From: Candidatus Sulfotelmatobacter sp.
GTDB taxonomy: Bacteria > Acidobacteriota > Terriglobia > Terriglobales > Acidobacteriaceae
Reading direction: 5' to 3'
Length of the DNA stretch: 54,010 bases
Assembly (NCBI GenBank): GCA_030041215.1
Contig: JASHOH010000109.1
Coordinates: forward strand, 1 to 54,010
The notes beneath the pieces were generated by a model. It saw nothing but the letters and a program-made list of their open reading frames with translations. It was not told where the DNA came from and did no database searches. A program made the translations under genes and the position numbers. Positions 44,916 through 54,010 of this stretch are shown in pieces (positions within the stretch are counted from its first letter, which is position 1; each line of letters starts with the position of its first letter).

Positions 44916-45185
44916 ATGAGTCCAACAACAGATGCTCCCACGATTACACCTGATCGCGAGCTTCACGAAGACAAGAACCGCGGCGAATCAGAGCCTCCGC
45001 GTATTCGCTGCCCGCTGTGCGGCTGGTCGCCTCGGAAGGAAGATCACTGGTTCTGCACCTGCGGATTCGAATGGAACACGTTCGACACGGGAGGAGTCTG
45101 CCCCGCATGCCTTCGCCAGTGGACTGAAACGCAGTGCCTGTCGTGCAGCCGATGGTCGCCGCATTCCGATTGGTACGCGCACTGA
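44916..45185 (+). CDS. Zinc-ribbon protein
   Basis: 89 residues. Four cysteine pairs or knuckles are visible: RCPLCGWSPRKEDHW, CTCGFEWNTFDTGGVCPACLRQW and TQCLSCSRWSPHSDWY. Two zinc ribbons are implied (CPLC with CTC, and CPAC with CLSC). The tail RWSPHSDWYAH reappears in a diverged copy at 46091. The family is found as a short stand-alone protein, and I cannot assign a function; zinc ribbons of this size often bind nucleic acid or protein partners. Confidence 0.72.
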   Translation: MSPTTDAPTITPDRELHEDKNRGESEPPRIRCPLCGWSPRKEDHWFCTCGFEWNTFDTGGVCPACLRQWTETQCLSCSRWSPHSDWYAH

Positions 45186-45251: not shown

Positions 45252-46082
45252 ATGCCCGCGATTTCGACCACTGCCGTCTCTTCGCAGCGTGAAACGCGAG
45301 TGCCAACTGCTGACGACTCCCTCACGATTTGTGCGATCAGCATTGTGGCAGGCATCCTGACGAATATCCTGCACGAGGGCGTGGGGCACGGGCTTATCGA
45401 TTTGCTGACCGGAGCAAAGTCTGGCGTGCTCACGACGGTAGCGTGGTCAAGTGCCTTCGGTTCCCGTCTGGTCGAGGCAGGCGGAACTCTGGCAAATCTA
45501 GCGGCTGGGCTGATCTTTTGGTTCCTGCTGCGTAGTGCCAAGAATGCCTTAATGCCAACTCGTTACTTCCTGCTCATCAGTTATGCATTTAATTTGTTTA
45601 CCGGAACTGGTTACTTTTTCTTTTCAGGTGTAACCAATTTCGGAGATTGGGCGGCTGTGATTGCGGGGCTGCGTCCGCATTGGCTTTGGCGGGCACTGCT
45701 GGTGGTTGTGGGAGCGTCTTCGTACTTTTCCGCCGCGCTGGTTGTCGGGATCGGACTGGTGCGTCACGTTGGAGTCCCGCGAAACCAACAGAGGCGCTTG
45801 CGAAAATTGACCATCGTGCCGTACCTCTCCGCGGTTGTTCTAGCAAGCTTGGCGGGATTGCTGAATCCGCTTGGGATGCAACTTTTGTGGCAATCCGCGC
45901 TGCCCGCGACTGCTGGCGGTCAGAGCGGGCTGCTGTGGTTGCAATACTACATACCGCGAGGAACGGAGCCGGAGCGAGTGCCAGACCGACTTGCTCGTAG
46001 CTACATGTGGATCGTTGTGGCGGCTGTTTTGGCATTTGTCTATGTTGTCGTTCTGGGACGCGGAGTAACGCTGCACCGTTAG
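45252..46082 (+). CDS. Polytopic membrane protein with an HExxH motif (M50-peptidase-like)
   Basis: 276 residues, about seven hydrophobic segments. The first membrane segment contains NILHEGVGHGLIDLLTGA, with HEGVGH (H41, E42, H45) placed as the zinc motif of site-2/M50-type intramembrane peptidases. A later NLFTGTGYFFFSGVTNFGDW and LNPLGMQ may supply the third ligand region (an aspartate is in NFGDW), but this is not certain. AAGGAG lies four bases before the ATG. It would reside in the inner membrane. No partner or substrate is indicated, and its neighbours are a zinc-ribbon gene and a duplicated tail of that gene. Confidence 0.7.
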   Translation: MPAISTTAVSSQRETRVPTADDSLTICAISIVAGILTNILHEGVGHGLIDLLTGAKSGVLTTVAWSSAFGSRLVEAGGTLANLAAGLIFWFLLRSAKNALMPTRYFLLISYAFNLFTGTGYFFFSGVTNFGDWAAVIAGLRPHWLWRALLVVVGASSYFSAALVVGIGLVRHVGVPRNQQRRLRKLTIVPYLSAVVLASLAGLLNPLGMQLLWQSALPATAGGQSGLLWLQYYIPRGTEPERVPDRLARSYMWIVVAAVLAFVYVVVLGRGVTLHR

Positions 46083-47583: not shown

Positions 47584-48984
47584 ATGCTTCTGACGATCAC
47601 GAACACTAACCCTCCGGCCACGGACTTGGGCTATCTGCTCCACAAGAACCCAAGCCGCGTGCAGACGTTCGAACTGTCATTCGGGAAAGCTCACGTCTTC
47701 TACCCTGAAGCGACGGCAGACCGTTGCACGGCTGCTCTTCTGCTTGATGTTGATCCAGTCGGTCTGGTTCGCACTCGGCGAGGACCTGCTGGCGAAGGGG
47801 GAATGCTAGATCAATATGTCAATGATCGCCCCTACGTCGCTTCTTCATTCATGAGTGTCGCCATCGCGAGGATTTTCAACTCTGCGCTGGCAGGCACCAG
47901 TAAAGGTCGCCCGGAACTGGTAAACACTCCGCTGCCTCTCTCGGCGCGTATCGCAGTATTGCCATGCCGTGGCGGTGAGGCGTTCTTGCGGCGTTTGTTT
48001 GAGCCGCTTGGTTATCAGGTCAAGGCAGAGCACCATCCGCTCGATGAGAAGTTCCCTGAATGGGGTGAAAGCTCTTATTACACCGTTGAGATCGCCAAGC
48101 AGGTTTCGTTGCAAGATTTGCTCACACATCTCTACGTTCTGATTCCAGTGCTCGATGCGGATAAACATTATTGGGTCGGGAAGGACGAGGTTGAAAAGCT
48201 GCTTCGCCATGGCGAAGGCTGGCTGCAAGCACACCCAGAGCGGGAGGCGATTGTAAGTCGATACCTGCGCGGATTCCGCAAACTGACGCGGGAAGCCTTG
48301 GCTCGGCTCACGGAGGATGAGTCCCTCGACCCCGATGCCGAACAGGAAACCAAGGAAGAGCAGGAACAGGCGATTGAGGCTCCCCTTCGGCTCCATGACG
48401 TTCGCCTCGATCAGGTTGCGGCGGAACTCAAGGCAAGTGGTGCAAAGCGAATTCTTGATCTTGGCTGTGGGGAAGGCAAGCTCATTAGGGAGCTTTTGAA
48501 AGACAGGCAATTTGACGAAATCCTCGGAATGGACGTTTCTTACCGGAGTCTCGAAACCGCAGCCGAACGCCTTCATTTAGACACATTGCCGCCGAAACAG
48601 AAAGAACGAATCAAACTGATTCAGGGATCACTTATGTACCGGGACAAAAGGCTGGCAGGATTCGACGCGGCTGTCGTGGTTGAAGTCATCGAGCATCTGG
48701 ACGAGCCTCGGCTGGCAGCTTTTGAGCGTGTACTGTTCGAATTCGCCCGTCCGCAGACGGCAGTCCTGACAACACCGAATGCCGAATACAACGCTAAATT
48801 CGAGACGTTACCCGCTGGGCAGTTTCGTCATCGTGACCACCGCTTCGAGTGGACACGCGAGCAGTTCCAGAATTGGGCGACCCGGATTGGAACGAAATTC
48901 GGCTACTCCGTAGTGTTCAAGCCTGTGGGCGAAGAGGATCAGAGACTCGGAGCGCCAACGCAGATGGGGGTCTTCCGTCTATGA
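47584..48984 (+). CDS. hen1: 3'-terminal RNA ribose 2'-O-methyltransferase Hen1
   Basis: 466 residues, the normal two-domain bacterial Hen1. The N-terminal domain (MLLTITNTNPPATDLGYLLH, SRVQTFELSFGKAHVFYPEA) binds and helps the ligase partner. The C-terminal methyltransferase has the SAM loop ILDLGCGEG (290-298), the metal-binding VVEVIEHLDEP (E367, E370, H371) and H416 in FRHRDHRFEW; these four positions match the manganese site of characterised bacterial Hen1. It methylates the 2'-OH of the 3'-terminal nucleotide of a cleaved RNA before sealing, which blocks further cleavage at the same site. Its TGA overlaps the ATG of pnkp (ATGA), so the two are translationally coupled. Confidence 0.95.
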   Translation: MLLTITNTNPPATDLGYLLHKNPSRVQTFELSFGKAHVFYPEATADRCTAALLLDVDPVGLVRTRRGPAGEGGMLDQYVNDRPYVASSFMSVAIARIFNSALAGTSKGRPELVNTPLPLSARIAVLPCRGGEAFLRRLFEPLGYQVKAEHHPLDEKFPEWGESSYYTVEIAKQVSLQDLLTHLYVLIPVLDADKHYWVGKDEVEKLLRHGEGWLQAHPEREAIVSRYLRGFRKLTREALARLTEDESLDPDAEQETKEEQEQAIEAPLRLHDVRLDQVAAELKASGAKRILDLGCGEGKLIRELLKDRQFDEILGMDVSYRSLETAAERLHLDTLPPKQKERIKLIQGSLMYRDKRLAGFDAAVVVEVIEHLDEPRLAAFERVLFEFARPQTAVLTTPNAEYNAKFETLPAGQFRHRDHRFEWTREQFQNWATRIGTKFGYSVVFKPVGEEDQRLGAPTQMGVFRL

Positions 48985-51536
48985 AGGTCACCATCCCCGA
49001 ACTCTCCCTCGTGCTGCTCGTCGGGCCTTCAGGCTGTGGCAAGTCTACGTTCGCTCGTCAGCATTTCAAGCCCACTGAGGTCTTGTCGTCCGACTACTGT
49101 CGCGGACTTGTCGCTGACAACGAGAATGACCAGAGCGCGACAAAAGATGCGTTCGAAGTCCTCCATTTCATCGCCCGGAAGCGTTTGGCTGCTGGAAGAC
49201 TGACTGTCATTGACGCCACGAACGTCCAGCCGGACTCGCGAAAACCGCTTGTTGCTTTAGCACGCGAGTTTCACGTCATGCCGATTGCTATCGTGCTCGA
49301 CTTTTCTGAAAAGCTCTGTCATGAGCGGAATCGGAACCGTCCAGACCGCGACTTCGGGCCGCACGTTGTGCGGAACCAATCTCAGCAGTTACGCCGCTCC
49401 CTTCGAGGGCTCGACCGCGAAGGTTTTAGGGGTGTGCATGTCTTCAAAACCCCTGAAGAGCTAGAGGGACTCGAAATTGAGCGGCAGCCGATGTGGACGA
49501 ATCGGCGCAACGAGCACGGGCCCTTCGACATCATCGGCGACATCCACGGCTGTTTCGATGAATTACAGGAATTGCTTGCGAATCTTGGATATTCGGTTGA
49601 AAAGAATGACGACGGTTACCGGGTCAAGACTCCTGAAGGTCGAAAGGCAATCTTTCTTGGCGATCTCGTGGATCGCGGGCCGAAGATTCCTGACGTTTTG
49701 AAGTTGGTGATGGGCATGGTCGGCAGTGGGACGGCGCTCTGCGTCCCCGGCAACCACGATATGAAGTTGCTGCAAAAACTGCGCGGGAAGGATGTGAAGA
49801 TCGCGCACGGTCTTGCCGATTCAATTGCGCAACTTGAGGCACAGCCACCCGACTTCAAGGGGAAGGTTGCTGATTTTATCGACGGCCTCATCAGCCACTA
49901 CGTCCTCGATGACGGAAAGCTGGTCGTTGCCCACGCGGGAATGAAGGAAGAGATGCAAGGACGTGGCTCTGGTGCGATCCGATCCTTTGCCCTCTTCGGG
50001 GAAACCACGGGCGAAACTGACGAATTCGGGCTCCCGGTTCGCTACAACTGGGCGGCGGACTATCGCGGAAAAGCATCTGTGGTGTACGGGCATACTCCTG
50101 TCTCAGAACCACAGTGGCTTAATCGCACGGTGAATATCGACACGGGCTGCGTATTCGGTGGAAAGCTCACTGGACTGCGCTACCCGGAAAAGGAATTCGT
50201 GTCCGTGCCAGCGCATCGGACGTACTACGAGCCCGCGAAGCCGCTCGTAGCTGCGCAGCCCGCATCAGATTTGTCTCAGCAGCACGAACAGGATGACGTT
50301 CTCGACATTGATGATGTCATCGGAAAGCGGATCATTGAAACGAGACTCCACGGGAACCTGACCGTTCGGGAAGAGAACGCCATAGCCGCTCTCGAAGCGA
50401 TGAGCCGCTTTGCAAGCAACCCGAAGTGGCTCATCTACCTGCCGCCCACAATGTCGCCGAGCGAGACCAGCAAGCAGGAAAGGTTGCTTGAACATCCCGC
50501 CGAAGCCTTTGCCTACTATCGGAAGGAACACGTCGAGAAGGTCATCTGTGAACAGAAGCACATGGGTTCACGAGCAGTCGTCATTGTCTGCCGCGATCAG
50601 AATGCTGCCCAGCGTCGGTTCGGAATCACGCAGGAAGAGATCGGCGTCTGCTACACACGGACGGGGAGACGGTTTTTCAACGACCGTGCACTGGAAAAGG
50701 AATTCCTCAGCCGTGTGCAGATGGCGGTTTCGAAATCGGGTCTCTGGGATGAACTCTTAACCGATTGGGTGTGCCTCGATTGCGAACTGATGCCTTGGTC
50801 TTCAAAAGCTCAGGATTTGCTGCGGCAACAATATGCACCGACAGGTGCGGCGGCTCGCGCTGGACTTGCAGACTCTATAGCTGCCTTGCACCGCACCAGT
50901 CAGCATGTACCAGAGGCTTCCGAACTAGCTCGACGCTACGAGGAGCGGCTAGAAATGGCGCGGCAATACGTCAAGGCATATCGCCAATATTGCTGGACTG
51001 TTCGGTCGCTGGCAGATTTGAAACTTGCCCCATTCCACCTGCTCGCCACGGAAGGTACAGTTCACATCGATAAAGATCACGTTTGGCACATTACGACGTT
51101 GGCTCGGTTGTGCTCTGCTGATCCTGAGCTACTCCTAGCAACACCGTACAAAGTGGTCGATCTGGGCGATGACAACAGCCAGCAAGAAGGGATTGCGTGG
51201 TGGGAAAAGTTGACTACCTCTGGAGGCGAGGGCATGGTTGTGAAGCCTCTCCAATTCGTTACTAGGAACAGGCGCGGCTTGATTCAACCTGCCGTAAAGT
51301 GCCGTGGGCGAGAGTACCTGCGCATCATTTATGGGCCGGAATACACGGCTCCTGAACATCTTGAACGCCTTCGTGCCAGAGGACTCGGTACGAAGCGGTC
51401 ATTAGCTTTGCGCGAGTTCACCCTTGGGATCGAAGCTCTCCAGCGATTCGTTGACCGCGATCCACTGAGACGTGTGCACGAATGCGTCTTTGGTGTGCTC
51501 GCGCTGGAAAGTGAGCCCGTTGATCCGAGGCTCTGA
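48981..51536 (+). CDS. pnkp: Polynucleotide kinase-phosphatase-ligase (Pnkp) of the RNA repair system
   Basis: 851 residues from the ATG at 48981; the frame to 48849 lies inside hen1. Domains: kinase at about 1-165 with P-loop GPSGCGKSTF (K21); phosphatase at about 175-420, calcineurin-like, with DIIGDIHGCFDEL, GDLVDRGP, VPGNHDMKLL, VVAHAGM and VYGHTPVSEP; ligase/adenylyltransferase at about 480-851 with adenylation lysine K526 in EQKHMGSRAVVIV, EGMVVKPLQFV and AVKCRGREYLRIIYGPEY. It heals and seals cut RNA: removes 2',3'-phosphates, phosphorylates the 5' end and, with Hen1, ligates. Length is close to the described bacterial Pnkp. Its substrate is probably ribotoxin-cut tRNA, which is known for the family, not shown here. 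Confidence 0.96.
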   Translation: MKVTIPELSLVLLVGPSGCGKSTFARQHFKPTEVLSSDYCRGLVADNENDQSATKDAFEVLHFIARKRLAAGRLTVIDATNVQPDSRKPLVALAREFHVMPIAIVLDFSEKLCHERNRNRPDRDFGPHVVRNQSQQLRRSLRGLDREGFRGVHVFKTPEELEGLEIERQPMWTNRRNEHGPFDIIGDIHGCFDELQELLANLGYSVEKNDDGYRVKTPEGRKAIFLGDLVDRGPKIPDVLKLVMGMVGSGTALCVPGNHDMKLLQKLRGKDVKIAHGLADSIAQLEAQPPDFKGKVADFIDGLISHYVLDDGKLVVAHAGMKEEMQGRGSGAIRSFALFGETTGETDEFGLPVRYNWAADYRGKASVVYGHTPVSEPQWLNRTVNIDTGCVFGGKLTGLRYPEKEFVSVPAHRTYYEPAKPLVAAQPASDLSQQHEQDDVLDIDDVIGKRIIETRLHGNLTVREENAIAALEAMSRFASNPKWLIYLPPTMSPSETSKQERLLEHPAEAFAYYRKEHVEKVICEQKHMGSRAVVIVCRDQNAAQRRFGITQEEIGVCYTRTGRRFFNDRALEKEFLSRVQMAVSKSGLWDELLTDWVCLDCELMPWSSKAQDLLRQQYAPTGAAARAGLADSIAALHRTSQHVPEASELARRYEERLEMARQYVKAYRQYCWTVRSLADLKLAPFHLLATEGTVHIDKDHVWHITTLARLCSADPELLLATPYKVVDLGDDNSQQEGIAWWEKLTTSGGEGMVVKPLQFVTRNRRGLIQPAVKCRGREYLRIIYGPEYTAPEHLERLRARGLGTKRSLALREFTLGIEALQRFVDRDPLRRVHECVFGVLALESEPVDPRL

Positions 51537-51544
51537 GGAACAAA

Positions 51545-52087
51545 ATGGCAACTCCGGAACTCACTCCTGACCAAACTGCGCAAGTCTCCGAACTGGTCGC
51601 CGAATACATTTCAGCACAGCGCGGGAAGTATGCGGCTCGCGCTGTCCCGGTGTCCGCGCAGCAAAGAGCGCCTCTGGAGGCATTCTTTGCGCGGGAAGTT
51701 CTCGACAATACCCGCATACTGGTGCTCGAAGGCGAGCGAGTGGCAAACCCAGACTTTTATCCGATGCTCCGAAGTTTGGGATTCACGAACCTGCCTGACC
51801 AATCTGCAATGGGTGCAATTACTTTCTGCGATGTTGTCGTTTCACACCAGCGATTCACGGCTGCTCTCTTATTTCACGAACTCGTTCATGTAGAGCAGTA
51901 TCGGCAACTCGGCATCCCACGATTTTCCGAACTTTACGTTCGTGGATTTCTGAATGGTGGCAGCTACGAGGCGATCCCGCTGGAAGTGAATGCGTATAAC
52001 CTTGAAGGTCGCTTTCGGCGTGATCCGCGCCGGGGGTTCTCGGTACAGGCGGACGTTGCGCAGTGGTCGGCTGAGGGCAGACTTTGA
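51545..52087 (+). CDS. Uncharacterised zincin-like protein (HExxH) in the RNA-repair operon
   Basis: 180 residues with GAGGAA five bases before the ATG, eight bases after the pnkp stop. The central helix AALLFHELVHVEQYRQLG has the HExxH zinc motif (H111, E112, H115). About 30 residues later, SYEAIPLEVNAYNLEGRFRRDPR offers E147 (or E142) as the third ligand, the arrangement of small metallopeptidases. The N-terminal half is helical and then beta-like (ARILVLEG... as RILVLEGERVANPDF). No signal peptide, so it acts in the cytoplasm. I cannot name a family. Its stop shares one base with the next start (TGATG). Place in the operon suggests a role with RNA repair, such as protein processing, but this is inference. 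Confidence 0.72.
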   Translation: MATPELTPDQTAQVSELVAEYISAQRGKYAARAVPVSAQQRAPLEAFFAREVLDNTRILVLEGERVANPDFYPMLRSLGFTNLPDQSAMGAITFCDVVVSHQRFTAALLFHELVHVEQYRQLGIPRFSELYVRGFLNGGSYEAIPLEVNAYNLEGRFRRDPRRGFSVQADVAQWSAEGRL

Positions 52088-52737
52088 TGACCCGCGCTGA
52101 ACAACTCATCTCTGCGGTACAGCAATCGGGATTCCCCTACCTCGATAGCCTGATTCACCTGTTCGTGGGCGGCAGCGAACTGCATGGCGCAAAGGTGAAG
52201 AACACCGATGATCTGGATATTTACGGCGTCTATCTGGAACCGCCAGAACTCGTGCTTGGGCTGGACAAGAAGGATTTCTATGTCTGGAGCACCGCTGGGA
52301 ACGAGCGCCAAAATGGACCGGACGACATTGACGTGTGCCTCTATTCTCTTCGGAAGTGGGCAGGACTGGCGGCAAAAGGGAATCCAACCGCACTGCATTT
52401 CTTGTTCTCCCGCGACTATGCACCGAGCCCTGAACCGTGGAAGAAGGTGCTCAAGCACAAAGATATTTTCCTCTCACGCCAAGCAGCCACTCAGTTTCGT
52501 GGCTTCGCTGAAGCGCAGCTTCGACGTTTACAGGGGATCGGGACTGTCCTCGCGGTCGTTCCCCTGCCATCGGCAGCAGAGCGCCGACGCCGCGAAGTCA
52601 TGCTGGCACGAGTCATGCTCGTCGCGATAGACCACATCGTCTCAGGCGAGGGACTGGGATTGGAAACGGCCCGCGATCTGGTTCGCGAGGTCGAGCATAC
52701 GTACCCGGAGTTAGCGGCAGAGCGTGGTGAACTGTGA
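52087..52737 (+). CDS. RlaP-like DNA polymerase beta-superfamily nucleotidyltransferase
   Basis: 216 residues from the ATG at 52087, overlapping the preceding stop by one base. The nucleotidyltransferase fold is marked by FVGGSELHGAKVKNTDDLDIYGVYLEP: the GGS loop (G29, S30) and the catalytic carboxylates D42 and D44 in DDLDIYG. A basic C-terminal half follows (FRGFAEAQLRRLQGIG, ARVMLVAIDHIVSGEG). The pattern fits the RlaP family (RNA repair pathway DNA polymerase beta family), which is predicted to add nucleotides to RNA 3' ends. The operon placement behind hen1-pnkp supports that reading. Its actual activity has not been shown here. Confidence 0.75.
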   Translation: MTRAEQLISAVQQSGFPYLDSLIHLFVGGSELHGAKVKNTDDLDIYGVYLEPPELVLGLDKKDFYVWSTAGNERQNGPDDIDVCLYSLRKWAGLAAKGNPTALHFLFSRDYAPSPEPWKKVLKHKDIFLSRQAATQFRGFAEAQLRRLQGIGTVLAVVPLPSAAERRRREVMLARVMLVAIDHIVSGEGLGLETARDLVREVEHTYPELAAERGEL

Positions 52738-53063: not shown

Positions 53064-54010
53064 ATGGCACGAGAAAAGAAGAAGACGGCACTTGAGGAGG
53101 ATTACGAGAACTGGGCGGCCAACATGGTCGAGGCGAACCCTGACCCGGCCCGGCGAATAGCCGCTTACTGGCGCTGGAAAGGTTTCCCGTTTCATGATCT
53201 CCGAGAAGCCCAGCGGCTCAAGCACCTGACGAAGCTGCTCAACTACGATCATGAGAAACTGATCGAGAATGGCATCGTTCGGCAGACCATGCACGGGTTG
53301 GCGCTTGCTGGATCGTATTTCGCCCACGCCAATGCTGTCCGGTGTGGCGGCAAACTCACGTCCCTAGAGGTCTACCGTAATGACGATTTTTTCGTCCCTG
53401 CTATCCAGAAACGAATTAAGTCTGTGGGCCGTGAACTCCTCACCGCAAACGACATCCGCAAAGCCTGCAAGACCTTTTCCGGTGCTCAAGGAGTAAGCAA
53501 CTTCCGACCGACTGCCGCCGCCGCTATCTATCACCGCTACATGCCGGAGCACGGCGGCGTGACATGGGACATGTCGGCAGGCTGGGGAGGTCGTTTTCTC
53601 GGAGCACTAGCTTGCACGCGAGTAAGGCACTACATCGGCTGCGATCCTGCACAGGAAACCGCTTGGGGCTGGTTGGCAATGGCGAGCGAACTCAACAACA
53701 CTGCTAAGCGTCTTGGTCGTGAAATGGGAGTGGAGTTCTACCCGGAGCGTAGCGAAGAGATGCGCCCCCACCTGAGCTTCGCCTCCGTTGATCTGTGTTT
53801 CTCGTCACCTCCCTATTTCGCGCAAGAGATTTATAGCGATGAAGAGACGCAGTCATGCAAGCGGTTCCCCAAGAAGGAGGATTGGCTCGACGGGTTCTTA
53901 GGCGCGACGCTCGACAACTGCGCTTATTGCCTCAAGCCGGAAGGCATCCTTGCCGTCAACATTGCGAATGTTTCGACCTTTCCCGATCTGGAGCAGGCAT
54001 TCATGGGATT
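53064..54010 (+). CDS. SPPY-motif nucleic-acid methyltransferase (3' end outside window)
   Basis: Open from the ATG at 53064 to the window end: 315 codons without a stop. AAGGAG lies six bases upstream. A helical N-terminal region (DYENWAANMVEANPDPARRIAAYWRW) is followed by the methyltransferase core: TWDMSAGWGGRFLGALA (SAM-binding motif I), HYIGCDPAQETAWG, and SVDLCFSSPPYFAQEIYSDEE, in which SSPPY replaces the usual DPPY/NPPY motif IV of N4/N6-amino DNA methyltransferases. The target could be DNA or RNA. No restriction gene is visible in the part shown. The order of motifs (I before IV) suggests a beta-class-unlike, gamma/epsilon-type layout. Typical of phage and island cargo. Confidence 0.78.
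   Translation, partial: MAREKKKTALEEDYENWAANMVEANPDPARRIAAYWRWKGFPFHDLREAQRLKHLTKLLNYDHEKLIENGIVRQTMHGLALAGSYFAHANAVRCGGKLTSLEVYRNDDFFVPAIQKRIKSVGRELLTANDIRKACKTFSGAQGVSNFRPTAAAAIYHRYMPEHGGVTWDMSAGWGGRFLGALACTRVRHYIGCDPAQETAWGWLAMASELNNTAKRLGREMGVEFYPERSEEMRPHLSFASVDLCFSSPPYFAQEIYSDEETQSCKRFPKKEDWLDGFLGATLDNCAYCLKPEGILAVNIANVSTFPDLEQAFMG

Follow-up and report, generated by a model that had tools for sequence, protein, structure and literature searches.

A Hen1-Pnkp RNA repair cassette with a gluzincin gene and a truncated rlaP gene at its 3' end in an uncultured Terriglobia genome

The chemistry of bacterial Hen1-Pnkp RNA repair is established, in part from PMC4411300: the ends of RNA cut by ribotoxins are healed by Pnkp and a methyl group is placed by Hen1 on the 2'-OH of the RNA 3' end, unlocking the Pnkp ligase; the RNA sealed by the pair withstands a second cut. 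RlaP nucleotidyltransferases associate with RNA ligases and have been predicted to restore lost nucleotides before ligation (PMC7824862; PMC6514570; both cite Burroughs & Aravind 2016). Here we describe a locus from Candidatus Sulfotelmatobacter sp. in which hen1 and pnkp are followed by a gene for a putative metallopeptidase (the zincin) and by an open reading frame (ORF) that begins as rlaP. The stretch of DNA analysed, hereafter the window, is the entire contig C239 (JASHOH010000109.1; 54,010 bases) of a draft genome of 5.03 Mb in 251 contigs. We read the locus, with a probability of about 0.6, as a mobile Hen1-Pnkp cassette to which an uncultured Terriglobia lineage has attached a gluzincin and an RlaP gene at the 3' end. 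It looks like a genuine variant, partly decayed, of a repair system already known and not like a new pathway; the original prediction, made from the DNA letters alone, had suggested that it may be an undescribed system.

The cassette and the genes at its 3' end

Hen1 matched TIGR04074 end to end (738.5 bits, cut-off 340) and PF12623 with 387 bits, its methyltransferase domain being present, and Pnkp matched TIGR04075 over residues 1-851 of 851 (1471.7 bits, cut-off 750), with kinase, phosphatase and ligase domains all present as three Pfam domains (Table 1) and with motifs that we take to be the P-loop, metallophosphatase and ligase-lysine motifs. The two genes lie on the same strand and overlap by 4 nt. 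In having both proteins complete, adjacent and overlapping, the locus is like the bacterial Pnkp-Hen1 RNA repair complex (TIGR04075/TIGR04074), from which it differs by two extra genes 3' of pnkp, one without a family name and one broken. The claims that Hen1 and Pnkp are intact and that they belong to a known kind of pair repairing ribotoxin-damaged RNA were borne out, and so was the layout of the four ORFs, all on the + strand, with an 8-nt gap between pnkp and the zincin gene and a 1-nt overlap between the latter and the fourth ORF (ATG at 52087, end at 52737). Judged by its sequence, this is an ordinary Hen1-Pnkp repair unit, found sporadically and with flanks that are not shared; hen1-pnkp homology with other genomes stops near the cassette borders, which suits lateral movement. 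The case for an island-borne system is weak: these borders speak for it, but no tRNA was found and no integrase was identified in the window, only some of whose genes were annotated.

The reading of the fourth ORF as an intact RlaP-like nucleotidyltransferase (NTase) did not hold. The ORF exceeds the PF10127 cut-off (65.2 bits against 23; profile positions 18-140 of 249), and residues 1-153 are 92% identical to P0122, a relative of 265 amino acids (aa). The fragment resembles RlaP in its N-terminal NTase domain with the conserved core motifs GGSELHG and DDLDIYG and in its link to an RNA ligase operon; unlike RlaP, it lacks the C-terminal helical half, homology ending at residue 153, and carries a foreign tail of 63 codons from the junction at 52,545/52,546. 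The domain limits were taken from a structure model of P0122, in which helices extend up to residue 258. Among the best 120 relatives listed, 96 of the 119 others are 255-300 aa long, and the listed relatives cover about two thirds to three quarters of the window ORF. When eight relatives were aligned, the C-terminal half (GKKGQRHE...HGYDIKAAMH...) that is absent from the window ORF was present in five, P0169 having its last part only and the short P0172 and P0180 also diverging; the tail was absent from all eight. At the nucleotide level, homology between the window rlaP and the copy of another genome breaks off at 52,535-52,545, and in 61 genomes the tail had a single match outside the window, a weak one (35%) with a G032 ORF of 129 aa. 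Because it is truncated and fused to foreign codons, the window RlaP is probably non-functional. The restoring of lost 3' nucleotides, as put forward in the original prediction, stands as a prediction for the family, already made in PMC7824862, but not for this copy.

The truncation could alternatively be an assembly chimera, the living genome having an intact four-gene operon. The genome is indeed a draft in many contigs, the contig ends 1.5 kb beyond the junction, and full-length RlaP relatives are common in metagenomes; but no gap interrupts the sequence and the fused frame remains open over its 63 codons, the other close RlaPs from genomes are broken too, and rlaP is missing independently from a second genome (G348), whose homology with the window ceases at 52,078. 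A chimera is, in our judgement, unlikely. Searches with RlaP outside cellular genomes gave 12 chance-level kinase rows only in the PDB sequences, and nine loci in a scan of viral contigs, eight of them with RlaP matches of 27-50%; none of the nine had Pnkp, Hen1 or zincin matches in the DNA examined.

The zincin has an intact metal site (H111, E112 and H115 in HELVH, with a conserved Glu147 downstream) and a zincin-like predicted fold, and is thus assigned to the gluzincins as a putative member. It had no match in Pfam, NCBIfam, PADLOC or PHROGs, neither a signal nor a delivery domain was among the families found in these searches, and a PDB sequence search gave no match up to E 10; one distant partial match was obtained in viral contigs (37%, residues 92-154) and one partial match in plasmids (35%). 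The C-terminal metallopeptidase of VgrG2b (MA(E) gluzincins, DUF4157-like) is a fold-level match, not significant in Foldseek and with 15% identity; unlike VgrG2b, the window zincin is a stand-alone 180-aa protein with no VgrG or delivery domain found. An alternative sees in the zincin an independent stress- or toxin-linked protease, resembling antibacterial effector gluzincins in fold, that would be guarded or balanced by the repair genes and would not help them. The lack of a delivery domain in the family searches, the non-significant structural match, the huge size of the zincin fold class and the failure to recognise an immunity gene make this quite improbable. In the reading preferred here, the zincin is a new part of this repair variant.

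Within the genus (45 genomes searched), close zincins were limited to the copy in the window and an interrupted one in G037. A 260-aa homologue is encoded on another contig of the same genome (C236; L004:5786-6568), where HGLVH replaces the catalytic Glu by Gly and the metal ligands are kept. This H[G/A/S]LVH type was found at 21 loci, all in the genus of the window, with a divergent TetR-family gene (Pfam) beside it at 19 of them, L004 included; from these sequences, it is a conserved, predicted non-catalytic zincin with a regulator.

Occurrence beside hen1-pnkp in genomes and metagenomes

In 397 genomes of the order, an even sample of a larger group, Pnkp was over the cut-off in 30, in three of which (G167, G207, G232) the match was not end to end. 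The flank examined beside pnkp was as a rule 1.5 kb, being shorter downstream in G167 and in G058, whose contig ends about 0.6 kb beyond pnkp. The original prediction was staked on both extra genes recurring beside hen1-pnkp elsewhere. For the zincin one such genome exists: G348, whose contig appears to be that of locus L069 (L069/L172), has hen1-pnkp-zincin, with a zincin 85% identical that matches the window zincin over 178 of 180 residues; its Pnkp falls below the cut-off because the assembly breaks pnkp up and leaves gaps in it. Homology between the two genomes stops within the last codons of the zincin gene. In both genomes examined that have the zincin beside pnkp, the 3' end is decaying. 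No second genome with the RlaP subfamily of the window adjoining hen1-pnkp was found, this subfamily being tied to Pnkp by metagenome coincidences only.

RlaP of another kind does occur there. G012 has a cluster of rtcB, hen1, two tandem RlaP genes (both over the PF10127 cut-off) and pnkp; in G168 the tandem likewise separates hen1 from pnkp, in G207 it immediately precedes pnkp (hen1 being outside the DNA examined), and in G303, in wider DNA, it lies upstream of hen1. It is thus present in three of the 30 Pnkp genomes within the flanks examined and in at least four with G303, a lower bound, since wider DNA was examined for few genomes (G012, G023, G043, G058, G168, G303); RlaP with Hen1-Pnkp therefore recurs. 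The tandem RlaPs of these four genomes are about 22-30% identical to the RlaP subfamily of the window, which is distinct from them. One such cluster, at L036:4033-12084 in a same-genus genome, consists of rtcB, named by eye, hen1, two RlaP genes in tandem and pnkp, the second RlaP carrying a CPCC cysteine-rich domain.

Across the 397 whole genomes, any zincin co-occurred with Pnkp in 9 of 30 (p 0.02), any RlaP with Pnkp in 5 of 30 (p 0.04; the tandem of G207 fell outside the E-value limit) and any RlaP with any zincin in 8 of 26 (p 0.03), p values that are weak, kinship and multiple tests being uncorrected. Close zincins (six genomes) and close RlaPs (four genomes) share three genomes (G000, G037, G199), or two without that of the window; this overlap was given little weight because the thresholds were set after the matches had been seen and the copies are mostly remnants, the zincin of G199 being a fragment and the close RlaP copies of G437, G037 and G199 broken or fragmentary.

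In metagenomes, protein searches returned the best 120 matches per family without gene context, with the longest contig per cluster; scoring for Pnkp was confined to the 8000 candidates with most words in common. Linkage was assessed by exact equality of contig sizes between families, the expectation being derived from shifted sizes. Among contigs of 10 kb or more (24 sizes for zincin, 50 for Pnkp, 19 for RlaP), zincin and Pnkp shared three sizes (12,074; 23,169; 41,941) against 0.044 expected, and RlaP and Pnkp two (18,180; 31,068) against 0.022. At 3 kb or more, the exact matches were four for zincin-Pnkp (0.41 expected), two for RlaP-Pnkp (0.35) and two for zincin-RlaP (8,492; 3,460; 0.17); a 4,417-base match, if real, leaves pnkp and the zincin gene little room apart. 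By this measure, close zincins and close RlaPs are each linked to Pnkp contigs beyond chance expectation. When the best 120 zincins listed and the genome copies were placed in a tree, the linked zincins grouped with L069, L072 and L043 in a single clade (107 tips, support 0.83), L046 lying just outside. The L072 copy has a broken frame, and those of L043 and L046 are interrupted or partial; the window copy is whole, and the only unbroken genome copies in or next to this clade are the two beside hen1-pnkp.

Several results weigh against the attachment of the zincin and RlaP to the cassette. Within the flanks examined, 29 of the 30 Pnkp genomes lack the zincin, leaving the window genome alone; they include G023, with Hen1 and Pnkp 89 and 86% identical, and G058, for which absence is not shown because of its contig end. 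No rlaP match follows the zincin in G348. Of 46 zincin loci from genome contigs, several short and two (L070, L071) apparently one contig, 45 had no hen1 or pnkp in the DNA examined, the exception being L069, and in a crude ORF comparison over 5 kb the most widely shared neighbour was infB, at four loci. Equal sizes indicate a common contig, not order, spacing or adjacency; zincin-RlaP gave no match at 10 kb or more, and single shifted nulls for zincin-Pnkp, RlaP-Pnkp and zincin-RlaP reached 4, 3 and 3 at 3 kb or more and 2, 1 and 2 at 10 kb or more. Foldseek with the zincin gave no match at E <= 0.001, and a promoter and terminator scan gave no evidence for a single transcript, with fewer sites than in shuffles.

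In the chief alternative, Hen1-Pnkp is the whole system, and the zincin and the RlaP fragment are passengers that came to lie next to it in a single small lineage and have no function in common with it. The zincin mostly lives elsewhere without a widely shared neighbour, inspection by eye showed no gene recurring downstream of pnkp in more than two of the other genomes, both genomes with this 3' end show it eroding, and in G015, G037, G057, G199 and G437 the close zincin or RlaP copies not beside pnkp are broken or fragmentary. Set against this are the metagenome coincidences, the tight 8-nt and 1-nt spacing, the independent RlaP tandem of other hen1-pnkp operons and the confinement of unbroken genome copies in or next to the close zincin clade to the two hen1-pnkp loci; mere passengers are the less probable explanation, and attachment to the cassette remains the reading we prefer.

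The infB gene (translation initiation factor IF-2) lies 1.5-3.2 kb upstream of the zincin in L082, L086, L088 and L097, whose zincins belong to a group of 44-51% identity. Some 0.7 kb downstream of the frame-broken zincin of L072/L208 there is a 62% homologue of the zinc-ribbon-like ORF of the window (Table 1); this ORF was dropped as a third partner, the evidence being a single locus (L072 is on the same contig as L042 and L208).

Table 1. Features of the hen1-pnkp locus and of its surroundings in the window
Feature	Position	Strand	Description
hen1	47584..48984	+	466 aa; 3'-terminal RNA ribose 2'-O-methyltransferase, N-terminal Hen1_L domain; TIGR04074, PF12623
pnkp	48981..51536	+	851 aa; polynucleotide kinase-phosphatase-ligase; TIGR04075, PF13671, PF00149, PF16542
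zincin	51545..52087	+	180 aa; gluzincin-type putative metallopeptidase; HELVH plus Glu147
rlaP 5' part	52087..52545	+	residues 1-153; NTase domain plus helix 1 of the helical half; PF10127
chimeric tail	52546..52737	+	63 unrelated codons, in frame with the RlaP fragment
methyltransferase-like gene	53064..54010		DNA methyltransferase-like (weak PF01555, PHROG 12517); runs off the contig end, adjoins the foreign tail of the fourth ORF
276-aa ORF	45252..46082		apparently membrane-spanning; HEGVGH motif; no Pfam or NCBIfam family
89-aa ORF	44916..45185		zinc-ribbon-like by eye

A proposed history and role for the additional genes

According to the history we propose, one uncultured Terriglobia lineage would have gained the zincin and rlaP behind pnkp, and in intact relatives RlaP would re-add lost 3' nucleotides ahead of sealing. 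In the window genome recombination would have cut rlaP at about 52,545, leaving sealing by Hen1-Pnkp as the only activity likely to work here, whether or not the zincin takes part. The zincin might act as an accessory protease, clearing away a protein brake or the damaging toxin while repair is on, a role that we hold weakly. Doubtful, though conceivable, is the fuller version of an extended Hen1-Pnkp-gluzincin-RlaP operon in uncultured Terriglobia, in which a protease, as a novelty in RNA repair, would switch or clear proteins at the damage and RlaP would rebuild 3' nucleotides before the 2'-O-methylated seal, the window copy being in decay.

In the limited literature consulted we found no description of a proteolytic step in bacterial RNA repair, although one may stand in the Burroughs & Aravind 2016 survey. 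If the zincin truly belongs to the system, it would bring such a step into this repair, pointing to a protein target such as a toxin, an inhibitor or a stalled factor. The recurrent and independently assembled link of RlaP with Hen1-Pnkp makes the prediction of gap filling by RlaP directly testable, and recognising the truncation keeps a non-functional RlaP copy out of such tests.
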